IMG/VR virus record: IMGVR_UViG_3300036944_000911
Span: 1 to 40,524 of that record
DNA length: 40,524 nucleotides
DNA from: a virus
Strand: one strand, 5' to 3'
Shown here: piece after piece, positions 2,268-38,481 of the stretch
How the letters are laid out: the number at the start of each line of letters is the position of its first letter
How positions within the stretch are numbered: the first letter of the stretch is position 1
Translations under genes and position numbers: made by a program
The notes under the pieces: model-generated
Database searches by the model: none
Seen by the model: the letters and a program-made list of their open reading frames with translations, nothing else
What the model was told of the DNA's origin: nothing

Positions 2268-3089
2268 CTATTTCCAAGAAAAGAGGTTACCGAAGCCGTT
2301 CGCTTCACCGGCGCCGGAGAGCAGCCCGCCCAGCACGGAACCGCCCGCGCCAATCCATGCGCCGAGGTTGTTGGCGGCCGACTGCTTATTTGCAGCGTAC
2401 TTGGCCGCATCGTTCTGCATGGTCGCGCTGGCCATGGGCGATCCGCCACCGGCAAGGCCAAGGTAGTTCTCAAACATGCGCTGCTGCCATGCCTGTTCGT
2501 CCTGCCTGCGGGCCAGCTGGTCAGCGTACGCGGCGTCAATCTGACTGTTGCCCCACTGCGCCTGCCCTGCGGACTGCTGGTTGTTGTAGTCGGTCGTGGT
2601 CAAACCCGCTTTCCACTGGTCAAGATTCTGGTCACCGGCCAGCTTATAACTGTCCAGCGTCGAGTTGATGCGGTTCATCTCGTTTTGCATGATGTTCTGA
2701 TTTGCCAGCGTGTTCGCCTGCGCCGTGGCTGTGGCGTAGTTCTGTGCACCGTCCTGCAGCGCGCCGGACATCAGCCCGCCACCGCGAGAGCCGTAAAGTC
2801 CATTAGCAGAAAACCTGTTGGCAATCTGGTTCTGTGCATTGTTCCACGACTGATTGACCGGCTGCATAAAGTCGGCGCGAATCTGGTCCGGAGACTGACC
2901 GATGCCCTGATACGCCGTCATAGACGGATCATAGCCGGTGCCCATCAGCCCCTGCGCCTGCTGCTGGTTGGCGTACGGGTTGGTTTTCTGGTCGCCGTTG
3001 TAGGTAGGGTATGCGGGGTTCTTGGCGTTGCTCAGGTTGTTTTTTGCCTGACCCAACGACCAATCAACCGTCTGCTGCGCTACGCTCAT
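2268..3089 (-). CDS. Putative virion/ejection protein (273 aa) with hairpin leader
   Basis: The product starts MSVAQQTVDWSLGQAKNNLS. It is unusually rich in Asn, Gln, Ala and Gly, with a hydrophobic glycine-rich C-terminal stretch (about residues 240-262, 'LGAWIGAGGSVLGGLLSG'). Phage ejection or tail-tip proteins often look like this. It sits directly downstream, in late transcription, of the embedded immI-like module. The start at 3089 follows an AGGAGG site that lies in the loop of a small hairpin, itself preceded by an ACAGGACGT-loop hairpin (3092-3122). The same leader precedes the capsid, scaffold and tail-fibre genes. Function is inferred from operon position only. Confidence 0.65.
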   Translation of the reverse strand: MSVAQQTVDWSLGQAKNNLSNAKNPAYPTYNGDQKTNPYANQQQAQGLMGTGYDPSMTAYQGIGQSPDQIRADFMQPVNQSWNNAQNQIANRFSANGLYGSRGGGLMSGALQDGAQNYATATAQANTLANQNIMQNEMNRINSTLDSYKLAGDQNLDQWKAGLTTTDYNNQQSAGQAQWGNSQIDAAYADQLARRQDEQAWQQRMFENYLGLAGGGSPMASATMQNDAAKYAANKQSAANNLGAWIGAGGSVLGGLLSGAGEANGFGNLFSWK

Positions 3090-3091
3090 GT

Positions 3092-3122
3092 TGACCTCCT
3101 GTCATGCTGCACGTCCTGTGCA
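3092..3122 (-). promoter_or_regulatory. Two-hairpin AGGA-loop leader of the 273-aa virion gene
   Basis: Read on the minus strand, TGCAC-AGGAC-GTGCA (3122-3108) forms one hairpin. TGAC-AGGAG-GTCA (3104-3092) forms a second whose loop is part of the Shine-Dalgarno. The ATG follows two bases later. The architecture matches the leaders at 9202-9236, 10294-10326 and 38446-38481. Confidence 0.6.
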
Positions 3123-3154
3123 AGAGCGTTGTTTGCTTGGCGGGTTTATGATAT

Positions 3155-3376: not shown

Positions 3377-3517
3377 GTGAGCAACCTAAACATAAGAAAT
3401 GTCCCAGAAGATGTGCACCGAGACGCAAAAATTGCCGCGTTGAGGGGGGGCAAGACACTGCAAGAATGGGTGATTCAGGCCATAAAGGAAAAATTGGAAC
3501 GGGAGAAAAAGAAATAA
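3377..3517 (+). CDS. Ribbon-helix-helix (Arc/FitA-like) repressor, 46 aa
   Basis: GTG start with GGAGG seven bases upstream. The protein begins MSNLNIRNVPEDVHRDAKIA and continues with a helix ending in a lysine-rich tail. The pattern (short beta strand SNLNIRNVP, helix A 'EDVHRDAKIAAL', glycine turn, helix B 'TLQEWVIQAIKEKLE') is the classic ribbon-helix-helix fold of Arc and FitA-type DNA-binding proteins, which dimerise and insert the strand into the major groove. It directly precedes a Rha antirepressor in the same orientation, as Arc precedes Ant in P22 immI. It probably represses its own operon, with the dyad at 3155-3176 or the promoter at 3328-3356 as candidate targets. Confidence 0.75.
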   Translation: MSNLNIRNVPEDVHRDAKIAALRGGKTLQEWVIQAIKEKLEREKKK

Positions 3518-3589: not shown

Positions 3590-4513
3590 ATGGCTAGCGC
3601 AATTATACCTGCTAACACGCCGGAACTCAACATCGTTGAAGGCCGCCCCGTTGTTTCCAGTCTGCAAGTCGCTGAGCACTTCGACAAGCGCCATGAGCGC
3701 GTCCTTGAGACAATCCGCAAAAGCATCGCCGAATGCCCACAAGAATTCATTGAACACAATTTTGTGTTGAACAGCTATTCCGATAAAGTGGGACGCACAC
3801 AGCCCCTGTATTTACTCTCCCGCGACGGGTTCACCCTCGTTGCCATGGGCTTTACCGGCAAGAAGGCGCTTGAGTGGAAGGTGAAGTACATCCAAGCGTT
3901 CAACGACATGGAGCGCGCCCTGATGGAAGGGCAGCACGGTCAACCTGTCTGCCTGCCACCAACTGAACTTACCCCAGAACAGCGCCGTCACCTGCACGAT
4001 GTGATGGATGCAAAAGTTTCGGCAATCCCGAACGAGTCACGCCGCGCCGCCTATTCAGAAGGCTGGACGCGCTTCAATCGCCATTTCCGCATTGCAAAGT
4101 ACGAACAACTGCCGCCCGAACGTTTTACCGAGGCGCTGGAATACCTGATAGCCCTCAAGCTGAAAACAGGACAACGGGCACTGCCAGCAACGCAAGCGGC
4201 ATTACCCGCCCTGCCAAACGACCTGCGGCACAGACTTACAGAGCACGCCCGCGCCTGCTTAGACTTCGGCAGCGAGTTTTACGCACGCTACACAAAGCTA
4301 CAGGCAGAAAGTCGCGCCCTTGCTGGCGACTTGCGCCAACACATAAGCGCTACCCCGTCCTTCGACTCGTCCCCTTCCGGCGCGCTTGCGCGTGAACGGG
4401 TTTACGATGCTATGACAACCTTTGCACGCCGTGGCGGGACAATAGTAGAAGCAGGCACCGACAACCTGTACATGACAGCCCGCCTGATGGAAGGGCTTGC
4501 AGGAATGAAATAG
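3590..4513 (+). CDS. rha: Rha-family phage antirepressor with ORF6C-like C-terminus
   Basis: 307 aa. Residues about 10-110 match the Rha regulatory domain: 'VSSLQVAEHFDKRHERVLETIR', then 'YLLSRDGFTLVAMGFTGKKA' and 'WKVKYIQAFNDME'. Residues about 125-190 ('RFNRHFRIAKYEQLPPERF', 'EALEYLIAL') resemble the ORF6C/antirepressor C-terminal domain. Such proteins antagonise repressors or regulate lysogeny in temperate phages. CACAGGAGG lies upstream of the ATG. The gene is opposite to all surrounding late genes, so late transcription runs antisense through it. A strong hairpin follows its stop. The family is clear; the target repressor is unknown. Confidence 0.88.
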   Translation: MASAIIPANTPELNIVEGRPVVSSLQVAEHFDKRHERVLETIRKSIAECPQEFIEHNFVLNSYSDKVGRTQPLYLLSRDGFTLVAMGFTGKKALEWKVKYIQAFNDMERALMEGQHGQPVCLPPTELTPEQRRHLHDVMDAKVSAIPNESRRAAYSEGWTRFNRHFRIAKYEQLPPERFTEALEYLIALKLKTGQRALPATQAALPALPNDLRHRLTEHARACLDFGSEFYARYTKLQAESRALAGDLRQHISATPSFDSSPSGALARERVYDAMTTFARRGGTIVEAGTDNLYMTARLMEGLAGMK

Positions 4514-4597: not shown

Positions 4598-5683
4598 CTA
4601 CGCACTCCACGGGTCGCTCCATACGGTGCCCCATGGACTCATTAGCCCCCCCACCTGTGCAAGCGCAGGCGGCGCTTGTCGTTGCAAGTGGCGCAATTCT
4701 TCGGTGCCGTCCTTCTGCGCTCCAGACGTAGGACCGTCGGGGGCGTATCCGTATGCTTGGTTGCGCATCCGCGCAGCGTCAAGCAGTCCAGCAACGCCCT
4801 GAGCGACACCTCCAACCCCGCCAGAAAGCGCAGAAATACCCAATGAGGACAAAGAGCCAAGAGCCTGAGCCGCGATCGGGTTCCCTGTCATACCGTATGC
4901 AGTACGTGCCACCCCTTCTGTGACGGCAGGCTTCATAAGCCCGCCCACGGCTCCCAATATGGCGTTCTGCCCACCGGTAAGCCCCAAGGTGCCTTTCTGT
5001 GTAAGCTGAGAGTACGCCTCCTCCGGGCTACGGTAGTCGCCTTTGAAAGCGGCATCCATCAACCCGCCAAAACTCAACGGCACCTGCCCGAACGTCTTGG
5101 CATAATTCGCGACCTGCTCTTGCAAGTGGGCAGGGGCAAGGGACGGGTTCATGCTCAGCACGCTATTAATCCGCTGGTCGGGACTCATGTTCACAGGCAG
5201 AAAAGAATTAATCTGCTGCTCTAAATGCCGCTTCTCCTCCGTCCGCTCCTTCTCACTCTGCTCATGCCCCCACATGCTGCGCGCCCGCGCCATGTCGTTG
5301 CGCGCCTGTGTGTAGGCGGGCGTTTTAACAGACAACCCCAGATGGTCAGGATCGGCCATGTAGCTGTCAGGGGTGGCGGCAACACCGCCATACGCGGTAA
5401 CCCTGCCTATAGCCTCGTTGTTGCGGCTCAATGTACCGTCAGGGCTGATATTGTAGTTTTTTTGTGACAACAGCCCGCCGATGCCACCCATGCGGTCACT
5501 GCCGCCCCCCAGACCGTCGTTGCGCCTGTCAGACCAGCCGGACATGCCGACCGCGGACCGCGCGTTCTCCCGCGCCTCACGCTCGCGTGCGGTCATGCCC
5601 AGGTTCGTGCCCTGCCTGCGGCCGCGAGAATCTCTGTCCGTGGCGTGGGCGCCGGAGCCGACTCCGTTACTGGAAAAACTCAT
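4598..5683 (-). CDS. Putative internal virion / injection protein (361 aa)
   Basis: Starts MSFSSNGVGSGAHATDRDSR after a GGGAGG site. The first 75 residues are low-complexity Gly/Ser/Arg, with an Arg/Glu-rich helix at about 30-45. The middle contains a charged coiled coil ('EQSEKERTEEKRHLEQQ'). The last third is Gly/Ala/Leu-rich ('LGSLSSLGISALSGGVGG'), potentially membrane-active. It follows the gp10-like propeller protein by two bases, the position of ejection proteins in P22-like genomes. I do not recognise a specific family. Confidence 0.6.
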   Translation of the reverse strand: MSFSSNGVGSGAHATDRDSRGRRQGTNLGMTAREREARENARSAVGMSGWSDRRNDGLGGGSDRMGGIGGLLSQKNYNISPDGTLSRNNEAIGRVTAYGGVAATPDSYMADPDHLGLSVKTPAYTQARNDMARARSMWGHEQSEKERTEEKRHLEQQINSFLPVNMSPDQRINSVLSMNPSLAPAHLQEQVANYAKTFGQVPLSFGGLMDAAFKGDYRSPEEAYSQLTQKGTLGLTGGQNAILGAVGGLMKPAVTEGVARTAYGMTGNPIAAQALGSLSSLGISALSGGVGGVAQGVAGLLDAARMRNQAYGYAPDGPTSGAQKDGTEELRHLQRQAPPALAQVGGLMSPWGTVWSDPWSA

Positions 5684-5685
5684 AC

Positions 5686-7221
5686 CTACCTCCCCACCAC
5701 GGCAAACTCAGCCGTAATCGAGTTTAAAACAACCCGCCCGCCCAGTGTCCGCAACTGCAGCGCTATGCCCGATGACCTCGGTCCGCCGTACAGTACAGGC
5801 TCAACCCGCAGCGCACTATCAGCCAGCGGGTAGTCCGCATCGATCAGTTTGTCATATGCGTCGTACAGCGGTTGCCCTGCGCTGCCTGCGCCCACGTCCG
5901 TGCGGCCCAGTTCGACCTTGGTCACGCCGTCGGCGGTCACGGCCTCGGCAATCACCGTGCACGGCCGCAGCGGGTCCAGAACCATTTTCGTGCGTTTGAC
6001 AATCAGGTCACCGCCCAGCCCCTCAAAAAACCGCGTCCGCAGACTGGCGGCGATGGGCGTTTCAACCCCGGGCGCCAGCTCGTCAGTGCCCTTGTTGCTG
6101 AACCGGTACAGCACCCCGTCATCACCGGCGATATACACCCCGCGCCCTACCTCCACCACGGCGCGCGGCTTGAACGTGCCGAAATCTACCTGTGTAAAAA
6201 CGCCATGAATCGGGCAGTAGATGACCGTGCGCGCACTGCTGCCGGTGCGCACAATGCACCATATCTGCGCCAGAGAATGAACGTACGTCATGGTGCAGGC
6301 GTCTGCGTTCGGCGCAATCTGAGCCAGCAGCTTGTTAATTTTAATGCCCACAATGGTATCAACGGCAATGTCGCCATACTGTCCGTTGGGCGCCGGAGCC
6401 ACGGCCTTGAACCCGTTGGTGTCCATCATGTACGCCGCGCTGCCCACGCCTACAATCGCACCCTGACAGCTTGCGGCGTTCTCGCGGCTGACGCTGATAC
6501 CGCTCCACTGCTCAGGCACTCCGGCAGTGCTGATGCCGTACAGCGACCGGCCCAGCAGGTTACCGTCTGCGTCGCGCCGCACCTTGCTGACAACCAGCGT
6601 GTCATATAGCACGGCAAATCCGGTGATGTCGTACCCGTCACCGAACCCCGCCGGAATTACCAGCGCACCGGCGTCGATATCCCATATGCTGTAGTCCCGT
6701 GGACCGCTGAAAAAAACCTGATCCGCCGCGCCCCGCGACGCGCACACCACCCGACCGCTGATTTCAGCCAGTGACGTAGGATGGGCAGGGCTGCCCGCAA
6801 TGGCGTTAATGGATGTGCCGTCATACACGCTCAGCCCTGTTGCGCCGCTATCGGCTATCAGGCACGCCCCGTTGAACGTCAGAAACGAAGGCGGCTCACT
6901 GCCTGCAAGAGTCGTCACCTCAGCCCACGTTGTGCCGGCGCGCTCCCACACCTTGCCACCGCTGGCCACCAGCAGCCGCATAGTGCCGCTCGCATCCACA
7001 TATGGGTGCATGGCCGTAATGGGCGCCGCCAGTGCCGTTACATCCTCACGCGCCAGCCCCTGCCGTGTACACATGCCGCGTTCCGGCTCGTGCCACCAGT
7101 TGAACGCACGCGACAGCGAACTGTCAGGGATGGCGTTGGCAGGCGCCGACAGGTCAAGTCCGCCGGACGGCACAACCATGCGCGTATCAAGCGACATATG
7201 CTTGCTGCTGCGTCTCGCCAT
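5686..7221 (-). CDS. P22 gp10-like packaged-DNA stabilisation / tail hub protein
   Basis: 511 aa from the ATG at 7221, which shares its A with the TAA of the upstream gene. The protein is made of repeated beta-strand units with Gly-Asp turns and aromatic ends ('VFFSGPRDYSIWDIDAG', 'VYIAGDDGVLYRFSNKG', 'MTYVHSLAQIWCIV'), consistent with a beta-propeller. Podoviral gp10-type plug proteins have this size, fold type and location after the head-tail connector gene. It probably closes the portal channel after packaging and links to the tail fibre. Assignment rests on fold pattern and synteny. Confidence 0.65.
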   Translation of the reverse strand: MARRSSKHMSLDTRMVVPSGGLDLSAPANAIPDSSLSRAFNWWHEPERGMCTRQGLAREDVTALAAPITAMHPYVDASGTMRLLVASGGKVWERAGTTWAEVTTLAGSEPPSFLTFNGACLIADSGATGLSVYDGTSINAIAGSPAHPTSLAEISGRVVCASRGAADQVFFSGPRDYSIWDIDAGALVIPAGFGDGYDITGFAVLYDTLVVSKVRRDADGNLLGRSLYGISTAGVPEQWSGISVSRENAASCQGAIVGVGSAAYMMDTNGFKAVAPAPNGQYGDIAVDTIVGIKINKLLAQIAPNADACTMTYVHSLAQIWCIVRTGSSARTVIYCPIHGVFTQVDFGTFKPRAVVEVGRGVYIAGDDGVLYRFSNKGTDELAPGVETPIAASLRTRFFEGLGGDLIVKRTKMVLDPLRPCTVIAEAVTADGVTKVELGRTDVGAGSAGQPLYDAYDKLIDADYPLADSALRVEPVLYGGPRSSGIALQLRTLGGRVVLNSITAEFAVVGR

Positions 7222-8241: not shown

Positions 8242-9198
8242 TTACACCTTCACGCGGGTAAGATTGCTAATAACGCCCACGCACTTCTTGGAGCGGCATT
8301 TCAGCGACTTTTCGGTCACCAGCATCAGCTTTGTGCCGTCGCCGGTCTTGGCCAGCTCTTCACGTTTCAGCTTGCGGAAAGTCAGCAACTGCATCTTGGC
8401 GCGCTCGTACACGAGCACCTTGTCGTACAGCACGTCCGGGTCGGGGGTGGCGTCAATGTCCGGCTCAATGTAGCGGGCCGGGATAACAGCCACGGTGCCG
8501 AAATCGGTTTCCACGATGCGCACAGCCATGGTGATCTTCTTCTGGCTGGCGTCGGCGTTGATGGACAGACGCCCGCCCTGAGTAAAGGCGCTGATCTTGC
8601 GCTTCTGTGCAGGGGGGGCCAGCACGGTGTCGGGGTCTGCGCCCTGCTCCCACATGTTCTGCAAAATATCGGTCAGGATATCTTCGGTCAGGTGGTTCGT
8701 ACCAGCCTGCGTGCCGCCGAAGTTGTACGAGTTGCCAGCGTCGGCGAAAGCAATTGCCCCGTCCATCTTGCGTGCAGTACCAGCGGCACCGGCGCTCTTG
8801 GTGCTGTTGATCGCGGCCCACTCGCAGTCGCGCGCGATCTCCTTGGTTTTCAGGCCGGTCTGGTAGTTCAGTTCGGACTTGCGCCCGTGCTTTTTGGCAG
8901 CCTCCAGCGAGCCGGAAATGGCGAAACTCTTCGCCATAATCTGAGTATAGTTTTCCAGCCGGTCAGGCGGGGTAATCGCCTTGGCTTCAGCGTCAAAGCT
9001 TTCAAGCTGCGCGTTTTCGCCAGCATCGCCAAGGGTATCCTCCAGCCACTCGGGGTGGGTGGTGTCACAGCCGTCCTTGCCGATGGTGGCAAGAAAGGGG
9101 GTTTCAGTCGGGGCAATGTTGGTAATGAGGCTGTCAACCTCTTCTGCCAGCGACTTGTCCATATTCGCCGTGTACTGCGTGGTTTTTACGTCTGCCAT
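8242..9198 (-). CDS. Major capsid protein, SU10/DUF5309 type
   Basis: 318 aa, starting MADVKTTQYTANMDKSLAEE. Features of the SU10-type capsid family include the N-terminal 'NIAPTETPFLATIGKDG' segment, 'AEAKAITPPDRLENYTQIM', a central helix/loop region, 'FTQGGRLSINADAS' and the late 'DKVLVYERAKMQLLTFRKLK'. It forms the HK97-fold icosahedral shell. The gene lies directly downstream of a scaffold-like gene, as is usual. Its leader carries two hairpins with AGGA loops (9202-9236), the second containing the ribosome site. A hairpin also follows its stop. Confidence 0.85.
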   Translation of the reverse strand: MADVKTTQYTANMDKSLAEEVDSLITNIAPTETPFLATIGKDGCDTTHPEWLEDTLGDAGENAQLESFDAEAKAITPPDRLENYTQIMAKSFAISGSLEAAKKHGRKSELNYQTGLKTKEIARDCEWAAINSTKSAGAAGTARKMDGAIAFADAGNSYNFGGTQAGTNHLTEDILTDILQNMWEQGADPDTVLAPPAQKRKISAFTQGGRLSINADASQKKITMAVRIVETDFGTVAVIPARYIEPDIDATPDPDVLYDKVLVYERAKMQLLTFRKLKREELAKTGDGTKLMLVTEKSLKCRSKKCVGVISNLTRVKV

Positions 9199-9201
9199 GT
9201 T

Positions 9202-9236
9202 GCGACCTCCTGTCGCTTACAGCCACGTCCTGTGGC
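9202..9236 (-). promoter_or_regulatory. Two-hairpin AGGA-loop leader of the major capsid gene
   Basis: Minus strand: GCCAC-AGGAC-GTGGC (9236-9222), a 5-base gap, then GCGAC-AGGAG-GTCGC (9216-9202), then AAC and the ATG. The second loop is the Shine-Dalgarno. The loop and closing pairs match the other three leaders, while the stem bases differ and stay paired. Confidence 0.65.
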
Positions 9237-9248
9237 CGGTATAGGCGT

Positions 9249-10289
9249 TTAATCAAACATTGCGCCAAGCGCGTTCAGGTCTCCCCCGCGCGCCCGCGCC
9301 GCCAGGTCTGCAAACCGCTGCTTGCGGCTCTGCCCTTGACTGCCGTCGGCGCCGGGGGTTGCCAGCACGGGCGGCTTAACTGCCCGCTGCACAGGCTTGG
9401 ATGCGGGCTGCTGCACAAACTTACCATCTGCGCCACGCGGCGGTGTCGCCTGTGGTTGCTGCGGCGTTCTGGCGGCAAGACTTGCACGGGTGCGGCTGTA
9501 CATCTCCATGTACGCCTGCGGGTCGCTGTCGAGCCGCGCATATAGGTCGCGTCCCATCGCTTCGGGAAGCGCCTGCAGCTGCTCGATAATGGCCGTCTGT
9601 ACATCCTTGTACATGGGGTCGGCTGTCACCTGTGCCTGCACACGCTGAATCGCCTGTGCCTGCTGTGCCTGCGCGAACTGGCTGCGCATCTGCTCAAGCT
9701 GCGGATTAAGCATTTGCTCAATCTCGCGCCTGGCCTCCTGTTTCGCCTCCCACTTCATCCGCTCGATGGGGTCTGCAGGCGGTTGCTCTGCCTGTTCGGG
9801 CTGCTGCGCGCCCTGCCCCTGCCCGTATGCGGCAAGGTACTGCCGGAATGCGGGGTCAGACTGCAACTGTTGCCCGAGTACAGAAAGCGCTTCAACGTGC
9901 CGTTCGCGCTCGCGCAGGGCCTGCATCTGTTGCGTGTAGTCTCCGCCCTGCTGCGCCAGCTGCAGGATTTCGGACATGGGCAGCTCCATCTCCTGACCGC
10001 GCACCTTGATTTTGTGCTTCGGCTCGTCCTGTGCTGCGTCGTTACCTTCTTCACCGGCGCTGTCTTTTTTCTCAGACTGGTCGTCTTCCGCTGCGTTCGG
10101 GTCGCCTTCCACTTCCTGTGCAGGCTCCTTGGCATCGTCAGTGCTACCGTCGTCTTCGCTGTCAAACATGGCGCCGATATCGTGCGCGCTCAGTTCGTGG
10201 GTGGTCTCTACGGTCTCAGACTCCACTACCTGATTCCCCACCTGCGGGGTGGTCTCTGCGGACTCCCGCTCAACGGTGATTCTGTCCAC
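9249..10289 (-). CDS. Capsid scaffolding protein
   Basis: 346 aa from the GTG at 10289, chosen because AGGAG lies 7 bases upstream; a longer frame starts at 10316 with no such site. The product is acidic at the N-terminus ('DDGSTDDAKEPAQEVEGDP') and then almost entirely helical and Gln-rich ('RREIEQMLNPQLEQMRSQF'). It ends in a basic patch ('SRKQRFADLAARARGG'). Acidic/Gln-rich coiled coil with a basic C-terminus immediately before the capsid gene is typical of scaffolds, which drive procapsid assembly and then leave. The leader has the AGGA double hairpin (10294-10326). Confidence 0.8.
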   Translation of the reverse strand: MDRITVERESAETTPQVGNQVVESETVETTHELSAHDIGAMFDSEDDGSTDDAKEPAQEVEGDPNAAEDDQSEKKDSAGEEGNDAAQDEPKHKIKVRGQEMELPMSEILQLAQQGGDYTQQMQALRERERHVEALSVLGQQLQSDPAFRQYLAAYGQGQGAQQPEQAEQPPADPIERMKWEAKQEARREIEQMLNPQLEQMRSQFAQAQQAQAIQRVQAQVTADPMYKDVQTAIIEQLQALPEAMGRDLYARLDSDPQAYMEMYSRTRASLAARTPQQPQATPPRGADGKFVQQPASKPVQRAVKPPVLATPGADGSQGQSRKQRFADLAARARGGDLNALGAMFD

Positions 10290-10293
10290 GGTC

Positions 10294-10326
10294 ACACTCC
10301 TGTGTCGGGGCAACATCCTGTTGCCC
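10294..10326 (-). promoter_or_regulatory. Two-hairpin AGGA-loop leader of the scaffold gene
   Basis: Minus strand: GGGCAAC-AGGAT-GTTGCCC (10326-10308), a two-base gap, then ACAC-AGGA-GTGT (10305-10294), then four bases and the GTG start. The first hairpin core ACAGGATGT is the closest of the four to the published CsrA SELEX consensus (ACARGGAUGU). Confidence 0.65.
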
Positions 10327-10340
10327 GTGGCATGCTGTTA

Positions 10341-10634
10341 TTAGGCCACGCGGCCCTGTTTTTTTACGCCGCTTTCTCTGTCGCGCACCTTCTTGGCAGC
10401 TTCCACGTCTGCAACAAGCACGTTGCGCAAGTCGTTCACGGCGTTTTTCCGCTCAATAAGGGACATAAATTTGTCTGTGTCCTTTGCCGCAAGCGCCAGA
10501 ATGGATTTGTCATACTCCGCCTTCACGCGCTCAAGCAGGGCTGTGAAGTATGGGTTTTCAAGCAGCTTGCCCGCCTGTTCTCCGCGCTCAATGGTTGCGC
10601 CAATCTCGGTGGCATTTTCTTGCCGTCTTGCCAT
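10341..10634 (-). CDS. Small helical protein upstream of scaffold (97 aa), unknown
   Basis: The ATG at 10634 shares its A with the TGA of the previous gene, suggesting coupled translation. The protein is one long charged helical region (MARRQENATEIGATIERGEQ, then 'FTALLERVKAEYDKSILALA', 'FMSLIERKNAVNDLRNVLVA'), probably coiled coil. Small helical proteins in this position of podoviral head clusters are common but of unknown function. Confidence 0.6.
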   Translation of the reverse strand: MARRQENATEIGATIERGEQAGKLLENPYFTALLERVKAEYDKSILALAAKDTDKFMSLIERKNAVNDLRNVLVADVEAAKKVRDRESGVKKQGRVA

Positions 10635-22387: not shown

Positions 22388-22855
22388 CTAAAACGGCACA
22401 TCGTCCATGCCGCTTGTTTCGCTCGGGAATGAAGGCCCGATGTCATCCGCATCGTAGCCGCGCTGGCGCTGCTGCCCGTTGTTGCGGCCCTGCTTCTGCC
22501 CCTGCCCAGATGCACCGGCACCATCGCCCTTCCGGTCAAGGAACTGCACACGCTGGCCTTTGATTTCGGTGGTGTATCTGTTCTGGCCGTCTTTATCCTG
22601 CCACTGGCGGGTTGTGATGCTGCCCTCCACATACACCATGCTGCCCTTGCTCAGGTAGTTGGCGCAGTTTTCGGCGGTGTTGTTCCATACAACCACGGTA
22701 TGCCACTCCGTGCTTTCCTGCCGGTTGCCTTCGCGGTCCGTATAGGTTTCGCTGGTGGCAATGCGCATACGCGCAACAGGTGTGCCGGACTGTGTGTATT
22801 TAAGCTCAGGGTCAGCACCCAGCCTGCCTATGATCATCACTTTATTCAGACTCAT
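22388..22855 (-). CDS. ssb: Single-stranded DNA-binding protein
   Basis: 155 aa from the ATG at 22855 (a longer frame exists but the coupled ATG fits). OB-fold residues 1-105: '[20 protein letters not shown]', '[14 protein letters not shown]', '[20 protein letters not shown]', '[15 protein letters not shown]'. Then comes a Gly/Gln-rich linker and the acidic tip 'SGMDDVPF', the classic C-terminal interaction tail. It protects single-stranded DNA in replication and recombination. The start shares a base with the preceding stop (TGATG). Confidence 0.95.
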
Positions 22856-23325
22856 CACATCCTCACTTGGTTGTTGACGGCCGCTTCCAGCTTCCGGATC
22901 TGCATATCCAGATCGCTGCTCCTCACGCCCCTGCGCTGCAGCTCTCTGGCCGCTGCCAGTGCCCCGGCGTCGTTTTTCCCTATCCGGCACTGAATCATCT
23001 GCACCCACAGGCGGGCATTGCTGCTGCTGTTTCGTGCCACTTCTTCCAGCGTCTGGGCGTTGCGCGACTGCCCCGCCTCAGTCTCTGCCCTGCGTACCGT
23101 CTGGCACTCCTCGTGGGCATCCAGCACCATGCGACCCACATTGGCGCCCCGCGTCAGCCGGTCGCGCGTACTCAGCAGGTGGTCAACGGCTGCACTCAGC
23201 TCGGCGCCGCTCAGGTGGCGCAACACCCTGCCGTACAGTTCCAGCGTATCGGCTGCAGGCTTCGGGTAGTTGAAACCGCGCCACACCGCGTCCAGTGCGC
23301 GGTCTATGTCCAGTTGCGTCAGCAT
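22855..23325 (-). CDS. Putative helicase-loader-like protein (156 aa)
   Basis: Starts [20 protein letters not shown] with AGGAGG seven bases upstream. All-helical, with '[20 protein letters not shown]' and a charged second half. The small N-terminal helical domain followed by a flexible tail recalls loaders such as G39P. Its position between the replication initiator (7-base overlap) and ssb also fits a loader. I cannot confirm the family by eye, and no replicative helicase gene is visible, so the phage would use the host DnaB. Confidence 0.5.
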
Positions 23326-24287
23326 ACGGCAGCCTCCTGCCGAACCTCGCTGTGCAGCAGCAGCTCAGGCGCACATGCCGCCCGATAGGGTTCGGGGTTC
23401 AGCCTGTGGTCGCTGCAATATCGCTCCAGCCCCTGCACGCCGTACGTTTTGGCGTAATAGCGCACGTCGGCAATCTGCGGCAGGCTCTCCGCTTTCTCGC
23501 GCTCCACAGGCGGCGGCGACTCCCACAGTCGTTCACGCAGAAATCTGGCCAGCCCCGGAGCAAAGCCGCGCTGCCACTGCCCGGACTTCGCCCACGCCTC
23601 CATGCCGGAAAACACAGGCTCAAGCGCAGCAGGACCGTGGTTGCGCCCGAAAAGCTGAATAAACTCCGTCAGTCCGGACCGTGGCCCTTCTGCCCTGCCA
23701 ACCTCGCTGTATCGCTGGCGCAGCTCTTCAAACGCGATTGCCGGTGACGTGTGTAGGTGGTCTGCCGGTGAAGAAGCAGAAACATCAGCCTCGGCACTCA
23801 CACACACCTCCCCCTGCGAGGGGGGTAAGGGGGGTGTAGTATTTCTTCTTGCTTTATTATTACTTCTTGTCTTGTGGCCCTCATCCATGCCCACTTGCTG
23901 GCCCATCTCCGTGCCCGTCTCCGTGCCCTCATCCATGCCCACTTGCTGGCCCATTTCGGGTTTCCTGCCCTGGTAACTACTCCAATTTACAAATGAAACT
24001 ACGGTATATTTACTGGCCGTCCTGCTGGCCACTACGCCCATGTTTTTTAGTAGTTCCAAAGCAGTGCGCACCTGCTTTTCAGACAGATTCAGGTCTGCGG
24101 CGGCGCGGTGTCGGCCAAACAAAACATCACCAGCACACAGGTCGACCACAGCCCCGCCGACAACCCGCTTGCATGGCTTGTGTGACGCACTCAACAGCAG
24201 ATAGCCGAACAGCTGCCACGCGGGGCCATTCTGCAATAAACCGCTATTAAGAATTTTGCGGTAAAATTTCACGTAACCACCGCTCAC
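23319..24287 (-). CDS. Replication initiation protein (winged-helix N-terminus, 322 aa)
   Basis: GTG start at 24287 chosen for GGAGG eight bases upstream; it shares its G with the upstream TAG. Residues 1-85 are a replication-initiator winged helix ('MSGGYVKFYRKILNSGLLQN', 'LNLSEKQVRTALELLKNMGV', 'SKYTVVSFVNWSSYQG'). A low-complexity linker follows with two near-identical 'MGQQVGMDEG' units (about 95-125). The C-terminal half ends in a domain with 'YYAKTYGVQGLERYCSDHRL'. It probably binds the phage origin and recruits loader and helicase. A lambda O-like origin could lie in the linker DNA. Confidence 0.75.
   Translation of the reverse strand: MSGGYVKFYRKILNSGLLQNGPAWQLFGYLLLSASHKPCKRVVGGAVVDLCAGDVLFGRHRAAADLNLSEKQVRTALELLKNMGVVASRTASKYTVVSFVNWSSYQGRKPEMGQQVGMDEGTETGTEMGQQVGMDEGHKTRSNNKARRNTTPPLPPSQGEVCVSAEADVSASSPADHLHTSPAIAFEELRQRYSEVGRAEGPRSGLTEFIQLFGRNHGPAALEPVFSGMEAWAKSGQWQRGFAPGLARFLRERLWESPPPVEREKAESLPQIADVRYYAKTYGVQGLERYCSDHRLNPEPYRAACAPELLLHSEVRQEAAVC
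23874..23955 (-). repeat. Direct repeats inside the initiator gene linker
   Basis: Two copies of a segment coding MGQQVGMDEGxxT, separated by GTE(T/M)GT codons, lie at the middle of the initiator gene. Lambda-type phages place origin iterons inside their initiator gene, so this is the best origin candidate in the window. There are only two clear copies. Confidence 0.35.
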
Positions 24288-36841: not shown

Positions 36842-38440
36842 CTACCTCCTCACCACAACGGGTGTCGTGTTCACGGTTACGCCGCTGATAGCGGCAGGCG
36901 TAGCACTCAGCAGTGCGGTTCCCTGCGTGGCCTGCACATGCCACCCGCCGAACGGGTTATCCAGTATGGTGCCGGTGGCAGGCAGCCGTACGCGGTCGCC
37001 AAGGGCATAGCCGTTGACTGCAGTTATTGCGCCGCCGGATTTTACAGCCGTTCCGATGTAAACGCGGCAGGTAGGTGAACCCGCGACGTTGTACATTATG
37101 ACCTCTGCGGGGTTGAAGATATCGGCCAGCGCGTCGGCTCTTTCCGCCCCGACCTCAGGCACAACGGCAGTCGCACCGAATCCAAAGAAATTCCCGTCTT
37201 CAGCTATATCAGCGTACACATGGCGAGTTCCGTCAGCCGCAGAAGACAGGTCGATAGCTTGTAGAGATGCTAACTCCTCTGAAAGCTGTACTCGACCACT
37301 ATCTGCATACGCAACCTGCAGCCCTGCCGGTATTGCAACATGCCCCGCGGGTACATCATCAAACGTAATATTCAACTCACCGAAAACTACATATGTAGAA
37401 GCAGTATCCTGAATTCCCGTTATCCGCATACGCAGCACCTTGCACCTGAAAGGAGCAGAAAGGGGAACCTCTTTTGCTGCCTGCTGTGCATCAGGAGCTA
37501 ACCCTGTAATGTTTTCAACAACAACCCCATCGGCAATTAGTTGAAAATCTTTGGGGAATCTTGACAACCAATCTGTGCTCAGACGCGGCATTATGCTAAT
37601 GGCGCTGACAGAACGTTCTACGCCGAAGTCAATTTCGACGAACTCATCACCCACGCCACCTACAAAAGAACCAGACACACTCGCCCAGCTATCAGTAGGG
37701 TCAACGGCTGTCCCGTTAAACAGCTTCCATGCGGCAGAAACATCATTATATTTTGAACTCTCCCGCACGGTCATACCGTCACACCAGTAAGCGGAAAAAA
37801 GAGGTACCTGCGGCGCAAGGATACTCATCACTGGCGCGTCGCAGTCTTCTGCGGTCCACCCTGTGGGTCGCGCTCCAAGCGGAGCCTTGACAATAGACTG
37901 AGGAGCGTGCGCAGTGCCGGTCCTGATGCCGCCCAGCGCGGCGTCAACAGCACCCTTGCTGTACACGTCAAGCGCAGCCCTCGCGCCCTCTGCGGTGCTT
38001 GCACCTGTGCCGCCCTGTGCCACGGGCCATACCGTAGTACCCAGCCCGTGCGCGCTGGCATCGGCATTGTGTGTGGTGACGGCAGAGTTTGCAGCCGCAA
38101 CCCCCGCCCCTGCGGCCTCCGCACCGATAGCGGCGCGCCATGCGGCACCGTCAGTCACGTTGCTGGCGTCTGCCTGTGCGGCCTGATCCGCCGGTACGCC
38201 GTCACGCCATGATACGACGCCCGCTGGGCTCTGGTGCAGGTAGCGGCTGCCTGTTGCCGTGCTCGTGGCAGGGTAATGCCCGCCCTGTACTTTGTGGTGG
38301 TTCAGGTCTGTCGGCCCATCGTCCACGGCGGCGTCAATCTTGACAGCCACGGCGCTGTTTACGGTATCGCCGTCGGGCGTCTCGTCCAGAATGGTCGTCA
38401 CCCGGCGCTCGTACTGGCCGGTCTCGCTGTTGTATGGCAT
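36842..38440 (-). CDS. Tail fibre with discoidin-like (F5/8 C) domain (532 aa)
   Basis: Start ATG 38440 (GGAGGA upstream), giving MPYNSETGQYERRVTTILDE. The N-terminal part is a fibre-type attachment region. 'TVWPVAQGGTGASTAEGARA' (about 140-160) is the phage-fibre 'GGTGA' repeat. Residues about 215-345 resemble a discoidin/F5-8 type C carbohydrate-binding domain ('SWASVSGSFVGGVGDEFVEI', 'DFGVERSVSAISIMPRLSTD', 'PKDFQLIADGVVV'). The C-terminus is beta-rich. It should recognise surface sugars. Leader hairpins as in the capsid gene. Confidence 0.78.
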   Translation of the reverse strand: MPYNSETGQYERRVTTILDETPDGDTVNSAVAVKIDAAVDDGPTDLNHHKVQGGHYPATSTATGSRYLHQSPAGVVSWRDGVPADQAAQADASNVTDGAAWRAAIGAEAAGAGVAAANSAVTTHNADASAHGLGTTVWPVAQGGTGASTAEGARAALDVYSKGAVDAALGGIRTGTAHAPQSIVKAPLGARPTGWTAEDCDAPVMSILAPQVPLFSAYWCDGMTVRESSKYNDVSAAWKLFNGTAVDPTDSWASVSGSFVGGVGDEFVEIDFGVERSVSAISIMPRLSTDWLSRFPKDFQLIADGVVVENITGLAPDAQQAAKEVPLSAPFRCKVLRMRITGIQDTASTYVVFGELNITFDDVPAGHVAIPAGLQVAYADSGRVQLSEELASLQAIDLSSAADGTRHVYADIAEDGNFFGFGATAVVPEVGAERADALADIFNPAEVIMYNVAGSPTCRVYIGTAVKSGGAITAVNGYALGDRVRLPATGTILDNPFGGWHVQATQGTALLSATPAAISGVTVNTTPVVVRR

Positions 38441-38445
38441 ATGTC

Positions 38446-38481
38446 CTCCGTCCTTGGAGCCGTGCCCCACGTCCTGTGGGG
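38446..38481 (-). promoter_or_regulatory. Two-hairpin AGGA-loop leader of the tail-fibre gene
   Basis: Minus strand: CCCCAC-AGGAC-GTGGGG (38481-38465), a 5-base gap, then CTCC-AAGGAC-GGAG (38459-38446), five bases, ATG. The second hairpin's 3' arm and following bases hold the ribosome site GGAGGA, so here it is in the stem rather than only in the loop. Confidence 0.6.

Follow-up and report, generated by a model that had tools for sequence, protein, structure and literature searches.

Four late genes of a 40.5-kb virus record (the window, by which we mean the whole stretch of DNA analysed), namely those for the major capsid protein, the scaffold protein and two other late proteins, carry the same leader, in which two hairpins with GGA in their loops precede the start codon. 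This leader is a real and rare RNA element. In the explanation that we favor, to which we give a probability of roughly 0.6, each leader works as a CsrA/RsmA-type translational operator with two sites, through which the CsrA protein of the host would control all four genes. More generally, the stems of the first hairpin covary around an invariant loop, and hence we predict an operator that acts at the level of RNA; the data support a protein-binding site with a CsrA/RsmA-like signature.

The two-hairpin leader and the genes that carry it

The record encodes an integrase, two S24-type repressors and a Rha/ORF6C regulator, the last of which (3590-4513, plus strand) lies opposite the late operon and adjoins one of the four leader-bearing genes, gene 3089. 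The late genes occupy the minus strand of the window, and their head gene set of portal, scaffold and capsid is SU10/LUZ24-like by profile and gene order. The same two lines of evidence back the identities of the major capsid protein gene (8242-9198, minus strand; SU10_MCP/phrog_1328) and of the scaffold protein gene (9249-10289, minus strand; LUZ24-like gene order, 36% to the scaffold of the related record G001). For the scaffold gene, the GTG at 10289 is the probable start, chosen by spacing; the mechanical start of the open reading frame, at 10316, falls within hairpin 1. At 10341-10370 the window has GGCCACGCGGCC followed by CTGTTTTTTT, a possible plus-strand terminator opposite the late operon. 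A reading made earlier from the sequence alone (below, the sequence-only reading) had named all four genes. Its capsid and scaffold stand, but its “tail fibre” (gene 38440; 36842-38440, minus strand, from profile and start options) and its “virion protein” (gene 3089; 2268-3089, minus strand, 273 aa, 58% to a protein encoded by G068, a collinear relative) match no family of known function in a profile search.

The window contains exactly four copies of the motif ACAGGAYGT (3111-3119, 9225-9233, 10313-10321 and 38469-38477, all on the minus strand) where 0.51 would be expected, and not one of 100 shuffles reaches that count; the motif is, in other words, commoner than chance. The copies precede the capsid gene, the scaffold gene, gene 3089 and gene 38440, and there is none elsewhere in the window. 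In each of the four leaders, the motif supplies the loop and the closing pairs of hairpin 1, which has a stem of 6-7 bp and folds with a probability of 0.84-1.0 in a 120-nt context. Hairpin 1 reads CGGCCAC-AGGAC-GTGGCTG ahead of the capsid gene (9220-9238; 26.4 bits with model R2), GGGCAAC-AGGAT-GTTGCCC ahead of the scaffold gene (10308-10326), TTGCAC-AGGAC-GTGCAG ahead of gene 3089 (3107-3123) and CCCCAC-AGGAC-GTGGGG ahead of gene 38440 (38465-38481), all on the minus strand and all backed by model R2 and by folding. The stems are unlike one another, and AC pairs with GT in every one of them.

Hairpin 2, with GGA in its loop, comes before the start codon in all four cases (each on the minus strand and defined by folding) and overlaps or abuts the Shine-Dalgarno sequence. 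The sequence-only reading had put the Shine-Dalgarno sequence in the loop in three leaders, and this is fully true of two: in the capsid leader (GCGAC-AGGAG-GTCGC, 9202-9216) and the gene 3089 leader (TGAC-AGGAG-GTCA, 3092-3104), GGAG lies wholly within the loop and is unpaired with a probability of 0.99. In the scaffold leader, by contrast, hairpin 2 (ACAC-AGGA-GTGT, 10294-10305) overlaps the Shine-Dalgarno sequence with an AGGA tetraloop, the last Shine-Dalgarno G is paired, and the closing pair has a probability of 0.40, whereas in the weak hairpin 2 of gene 38440 (CTCC-AAGGAC-GGAG, 38446-38459; probability 0.15) the loop is AAGGAC and the Shine-Dalgarno-like GGAG falls in the 3' arm. From GGA to GGA, the two hairpins are 20, 18, 17 and 21 nt apart (capsid, scaffold, gene 3089 and gene 38440, respectively), and the GGA site of hairpin 2 stands 10-13 nt before the start codon.

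These features can be written as a tandem grammar, in which an AGGAN loop, closed by C-G and carried by a stem of 5 bp or more, is followed first by a GGA hairpin and next by a start codon. The window holds four matches to this grammar, against a mean of 0.045 and a largest count of 1 in 200 dinucleotide shuffles, while 975 kb of other phage DNA, from loci collected by terminase and not by the leader motif, hold two matches, neither of them leader-like. The leaders are therefore real rather than compositional. The remaining late genes of the window have no tandem leader by the same scan, and the claims of the sequence-only reading that four late genes share a leader, that its first hairpin sets a common core on different but paired stems and that other late genes do without it are all borne out. 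At the gathering score, the window has no Rfam match. A single-hairpin look-alike without hairpin 1, the Shine-Dalgarno hairpin CGGCAG-GAGG-CTGCCG (23325-23342, minus strand), stands directly before the ATG at 23325 of a 156-aa gene that ends at 22855.

Relatives and compensatory change

A DNA search of the GenBank phage collection returned no near relative of the window, and no prophage relative emerged when genomes were scanned with the capsid protein. A contig that is 95% identical to the window, L001, has unchanged capsid and scaffold leaders and so adds no covariation. Pattern scans of IMG/VR yielded the more distant record G001 (IMGVR_UViG_3300048577_000448, 57.5 kb), which runs collinear with the window (identities of 39% for the terminase, 30% for the portal, 36% each for scaffold and capsid and 74% for an AAA protein). 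It contains exactly two matches to the tandem grammar, on the scaffold and capsid genes, with stems paired differently from those of the window. The scaffold leader of G001 is the match of the search pattern itself. Its capsid leader, CGCTCAC-AGGAC-GTGAGCG, is the same element although the search pattern would not match it, and for that reason it counts as an independent match. Between the window and G001, then, the orthologous scaffold and capsid leaders have stems that differ by paired changes. At about 4844-6687 in G001 (L149), the capsid gene is split by a frame for a LAGLIDADG-type homing endonuclease, with flanks that are out of frame, in an intron-like arrangement.

Across nine hairpin-1 sequences, 92% of the cells are paired, whereas shuffled sequences reach 62% and slid controls 27-41%. 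Five of the seven stem pairs vary on both sides, and the two loop-adjacent pairs are constant; these two belonged to the search motif, which makes their constancy outside the window a matter of construction, whereas the five outer pairs did not. ACA and GU, with AC paired to GU, are present in all nine (again by construction for those outside the window). Hairpin 1 thus has the compensatory changes of a conserved structured RNA element, and the covarying stems that had been read from the window alone are confirmed in the larger set.

The distribution of the element among relatives is patchy. Contig L011, the head genes of which belong to a different family, has both hairpins in perfect form before a gene that adjoins its capsid gene, and L004, L016 and L019 have hairpin 1 with weaker second hairpins. 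L016 (2700-2815) and L019 (minus strand, about 3494-3502) are related contigs that have in common a promoter-like stretch and a CTGCAC-AGGAC-GTGCAG leader, which precedes different small genes of 75 and 61 aa. The leaders are absent from G068, which is collinear with the window and has tail proteins about 60% identical to its own, and the element is absent from the leaders of LUZ24-like relatives and from 80 terminase relatives; indeed, every relative looked at by terminase or capsid lacks it. When IMG/VR was scanned with a looser pattern, 48 more stretches came up, and not one of them had the two hairpins together. The expectation that related phages would conserve the leader was therefore correct for the scaffold and capsid genes of G001, with their changed stems, and for L011, but not for G068, the LUZ24-like phages or the terminase relatives.

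Predicted control by host CsrA and competing readings

The likeness to CsrA/RsmA sites that the sequence-only reading had pointed out is extensive but incomplete. In the SELEX consensus of CsrA, RUACARGGAUGU, ACA and GGA are invariant, GU is nearly so, and AC pairs with GU; CsrA can bridge sites 10-63 nt apart, with an optimum of about 18 nt or slightly more (PMC7652899). The phage leaders have the ACA, the GGA and the GU of this consensus, they present GGA in the loops of short hairpins (weakly in hairpin 2 of the scaffold gene and gene 38440), and their two sites, one of which is on the Shine-Dalgarno sequence, are 17-21 nt apart and hence within the bridging range. The R of the SELEX hexaloop ARGGAU is lacking from hairpin 1, which has a pentaloop instead, and stems of 6-7 bp are stronger than those of most SELEX ligands, which have four pairs or fewer (PMC7652899). 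The loop shorter by one base had been counted against CsrA; this objection is weakened, given that the natural repeats of CsrB look alike and that the AGGAX pentaloop is a documented natural type of RsmE/CsrA site with lower affinity (PMC4005645). Inside the scaffold gene, GUACAAGGAUGU at 9601-9612 is an exact copy of the SELEX consensus (PMC7652899). It belongs to the hairpin TGTACAAGGATGTACA (9598-9613, minus strand), which has the canonical hexaloop AAGGAU on a stem of 5-6 bp and is also present in L001; possibly it is an extra, third contact, or else a coding chance.

Which CsrA would be the ligand? The integrase of the window shares 38-40% identity with the integrases of Lawsonia and Nitratidesulfovibrio, compared with about 24% for the next matches, so that the host, judged from the integrase alone, is probably a member of the Desulfovibrionaceae. 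A host of this family would be expected to possess csrA. Because neither the window nor G001 encodes a csrA gene, we infer that the ligand is CsrA of the host. The sequence evidence covers the paired hairpins, the constant loop and closing pairs, the spacing, the placement at ribosome sites and the restriction to four genes. We posit that one dimer of host CsrA would grip hairpin 1 and bridge to hairpin 2, shutting the ribosome sites of the capsid gene, the scaffold gene and the two other late genes. By analogy with the flagellin gene flaA, binding would repress, and repression would be lifted once CsrA is titrated by plentiful late transcripts or by an antagonist from the host, for example FliW. 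The outcome would be a single delayed, coordinated burst of capsid and scaffold synthesis, with the rest of the late operon translated freely.

Could a protein of the phage, rather than of the host, be the partner? An operator of the same design might serve a phage-encoded RNA-binding protein in autoregulation or timing, as with regulators of the T4 RegA type, and the confinement of the leaders to late genes of two related phages, together with the many phage genes without known function, would suit that idea. We consider it unlikely, however, because the loop and the closing pair of the motif both agree with those of a natural CsrA site, because no candidate gene tracks the leader and because L011 also carries the leader with another head-gene family. 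The Rha/ORF6C-type protein, which is common to the window and G001 (42%) and was not found in the leader-less G068, is no known RNA binder. Quite unlikely, too, is an enhancer that works without any protein, in which the Shine-Dalgarno-like AGGA loop of hairpin 1 would give ribosomes a standby site and hairpin 2 would present an open Shine-Dalgarno sequence, the whole raising the output of abundant virion proteins. Both loops are able to pair with the anti-Shine-Dalgarno sequence, the Shine-Dalgarno sequence is open in the capsid and gene 3089 leaders, and capsid and scaffold are high-copy proteins; yet such an enhancer does not account for a constant spacing of 17-21 nt, for closing pairs that are invariably A-U and C-G or for the pyrimidine at position 5 of the loop.

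If host CsrA does bind, is control of the phage genes the point of it? Abundant late mRNA might above all draw CsrA off host mRNAs, as CsrB does, with secondary effects on the phage genes. The hairpins match the CsrB repeat, there are eight sites across the four leaders, and titration of CsrA has been described for the flaA leader (PMC4894983). As the main function we regard this as very unlikely, since the hairpins stand strictly at the ribosome sites of particular genes and the second site falls on the Shine-Dalgarno sequence, a placement that suggests control in cis; a sponge role is nevertheless compatible with the operator that we favor and may be additional to it. The least probable reading is that of an RNA processing site, or else of a palindrome that is bound at the DNA level as a promoter or operator. 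The location between cistrons and the single strand of all copies are in keeping with it, but variable arms around a fixed asymmetric center fit RNA hairpins and not a DNA palindrome. A scan around the capsid and scaffold leaders found no sigma-70-like promoter, and on that result the DNA promoter version was rejected.

CsrA is among the most widespread of bacterial RNA regulators, and searches of the literature on CsrA and phage genes turned up no title or abstract on a phage with CsrA-type operators at its own late structural genes. If the leaders are indeed operators for host CsrA, they would give host physiology a simple way to set the timing and amount of capsid. The eight GGA hairpins, with their different stems, would also form a natural series of two-site operators for measuring CsrA recognition outside the Gammaproteobacteria.

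Comparison with known elements

Repeated elements just upstream of several start codons, associated with inverted repeats, are also known as SAS/ESAS from the Cluster K mycobacteriophages; in the part of the source that we draw on, these are 17-bp inverted repeats of conserved sequence with little support for mRNA hairpins, and the element as described there has no CsrA signature (PMC3203893). Set against that description, the complete difference in hairpin arms between phage leaders rules out repeats of the SAS/ESAS type. A CsrA homologue is encoded by 85 records of the GenBank phage collection, mostly Pseudomonas and Vibrio phages; the CsrA-encoding phages VvAW1, YMC11/07/P54 and 431E45.1 have no tandem leader at their late genes.

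Other parallels come from small RNAs. SL3 and SL4 of RsmZ and the RsmE/CsrA pentaloop sites have, like hairpin 1, an AGGAX loop without the N of ANGGAX, but RsmZ SL3 and SL4 do so in an sRNA context, with Pseudomonas proteins and lower affinity (PMC4005645). The repeats of the CsrB sRNA of Escherichia coli are C-G-closed CAGGAYG pentaloops (AGGAU or AGGAC) on variable, paired stems that are unlike one another, and they lack the R in the loop just as hairpin 1 does. When 49.6 kb of E. coli DNA was searched with a C-AGGA[ACT]-G grammar that requires 4 bp or more of stem, eight of nine matches fell in the 369-nt CsrB, and both matches to the tandem grammar in E. coli DNA lie inside it. Model R2 scores the CsrB hairpins weakly (11-12 bits, not significant), because it demands an A-U pair; the looser grammar detects them. 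CsrB differs in being a noncoding sponge of many hairpins, whereas the phage element has two hairpins, lies in the leader of an mRNA and invariably carries an A-U pair beneath its closing C-G.

The flagellin gene is a classic CsrA target. Model R1, built from phage leaders only, picks out a single match in a deltaproteobacterial genome of 2.7 Mb (a metagenome-assembled genome, or MAG, that encodes csrA). This match is the leader of a flagellin gene (L212, G010:C20:15136-15178, minus strand); its plan is nearly the same as that of the phage leaders, and its hairpin 2, TGAC-AGGAG-GTCA, agrees letter for letter with the one at gene 3089. Run over 58 genomes belonging to that phylum, the model finds only this match and a weak one with no credible downstream gene, and 30 other flagellin leaders of the phylum do not have the element. 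As a link to CsrA control, the match is suggestive only, given those other leaders and given that the genome was reached via a motif scan.

The same overall design is found in the CsrA-FliW-flagellin switch, at the leaders of flaA in Campylobacter jejuni and of hag in Bacillus subtilis. There, too, the gene of a mass-produced structural protein is preceded by a pair of GGA stem-loops, of which the second occupies the ribosome site; the flaA leader, with ANGGA in both stem-loops, is repressed by CsrA and is backed by compensatory changes (PMC4894983). The difference is that flaA and hag are cellular flagellin genes with ANGGA loops, while the phage leaders serve virion genes with AGGAY loops. 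We speculate, tentatively, that phages have copied the kind of CsrA switch seen at flagellin genes and placed it on their genes for capsid and scaffold, such that virion production would be gated by the CsrA (and FliW/flagellin) state of the host and late mRNA would drain CsrA from host targets; if so, the motility or growth state of the cell and the lytic burst would be linked in both directions.
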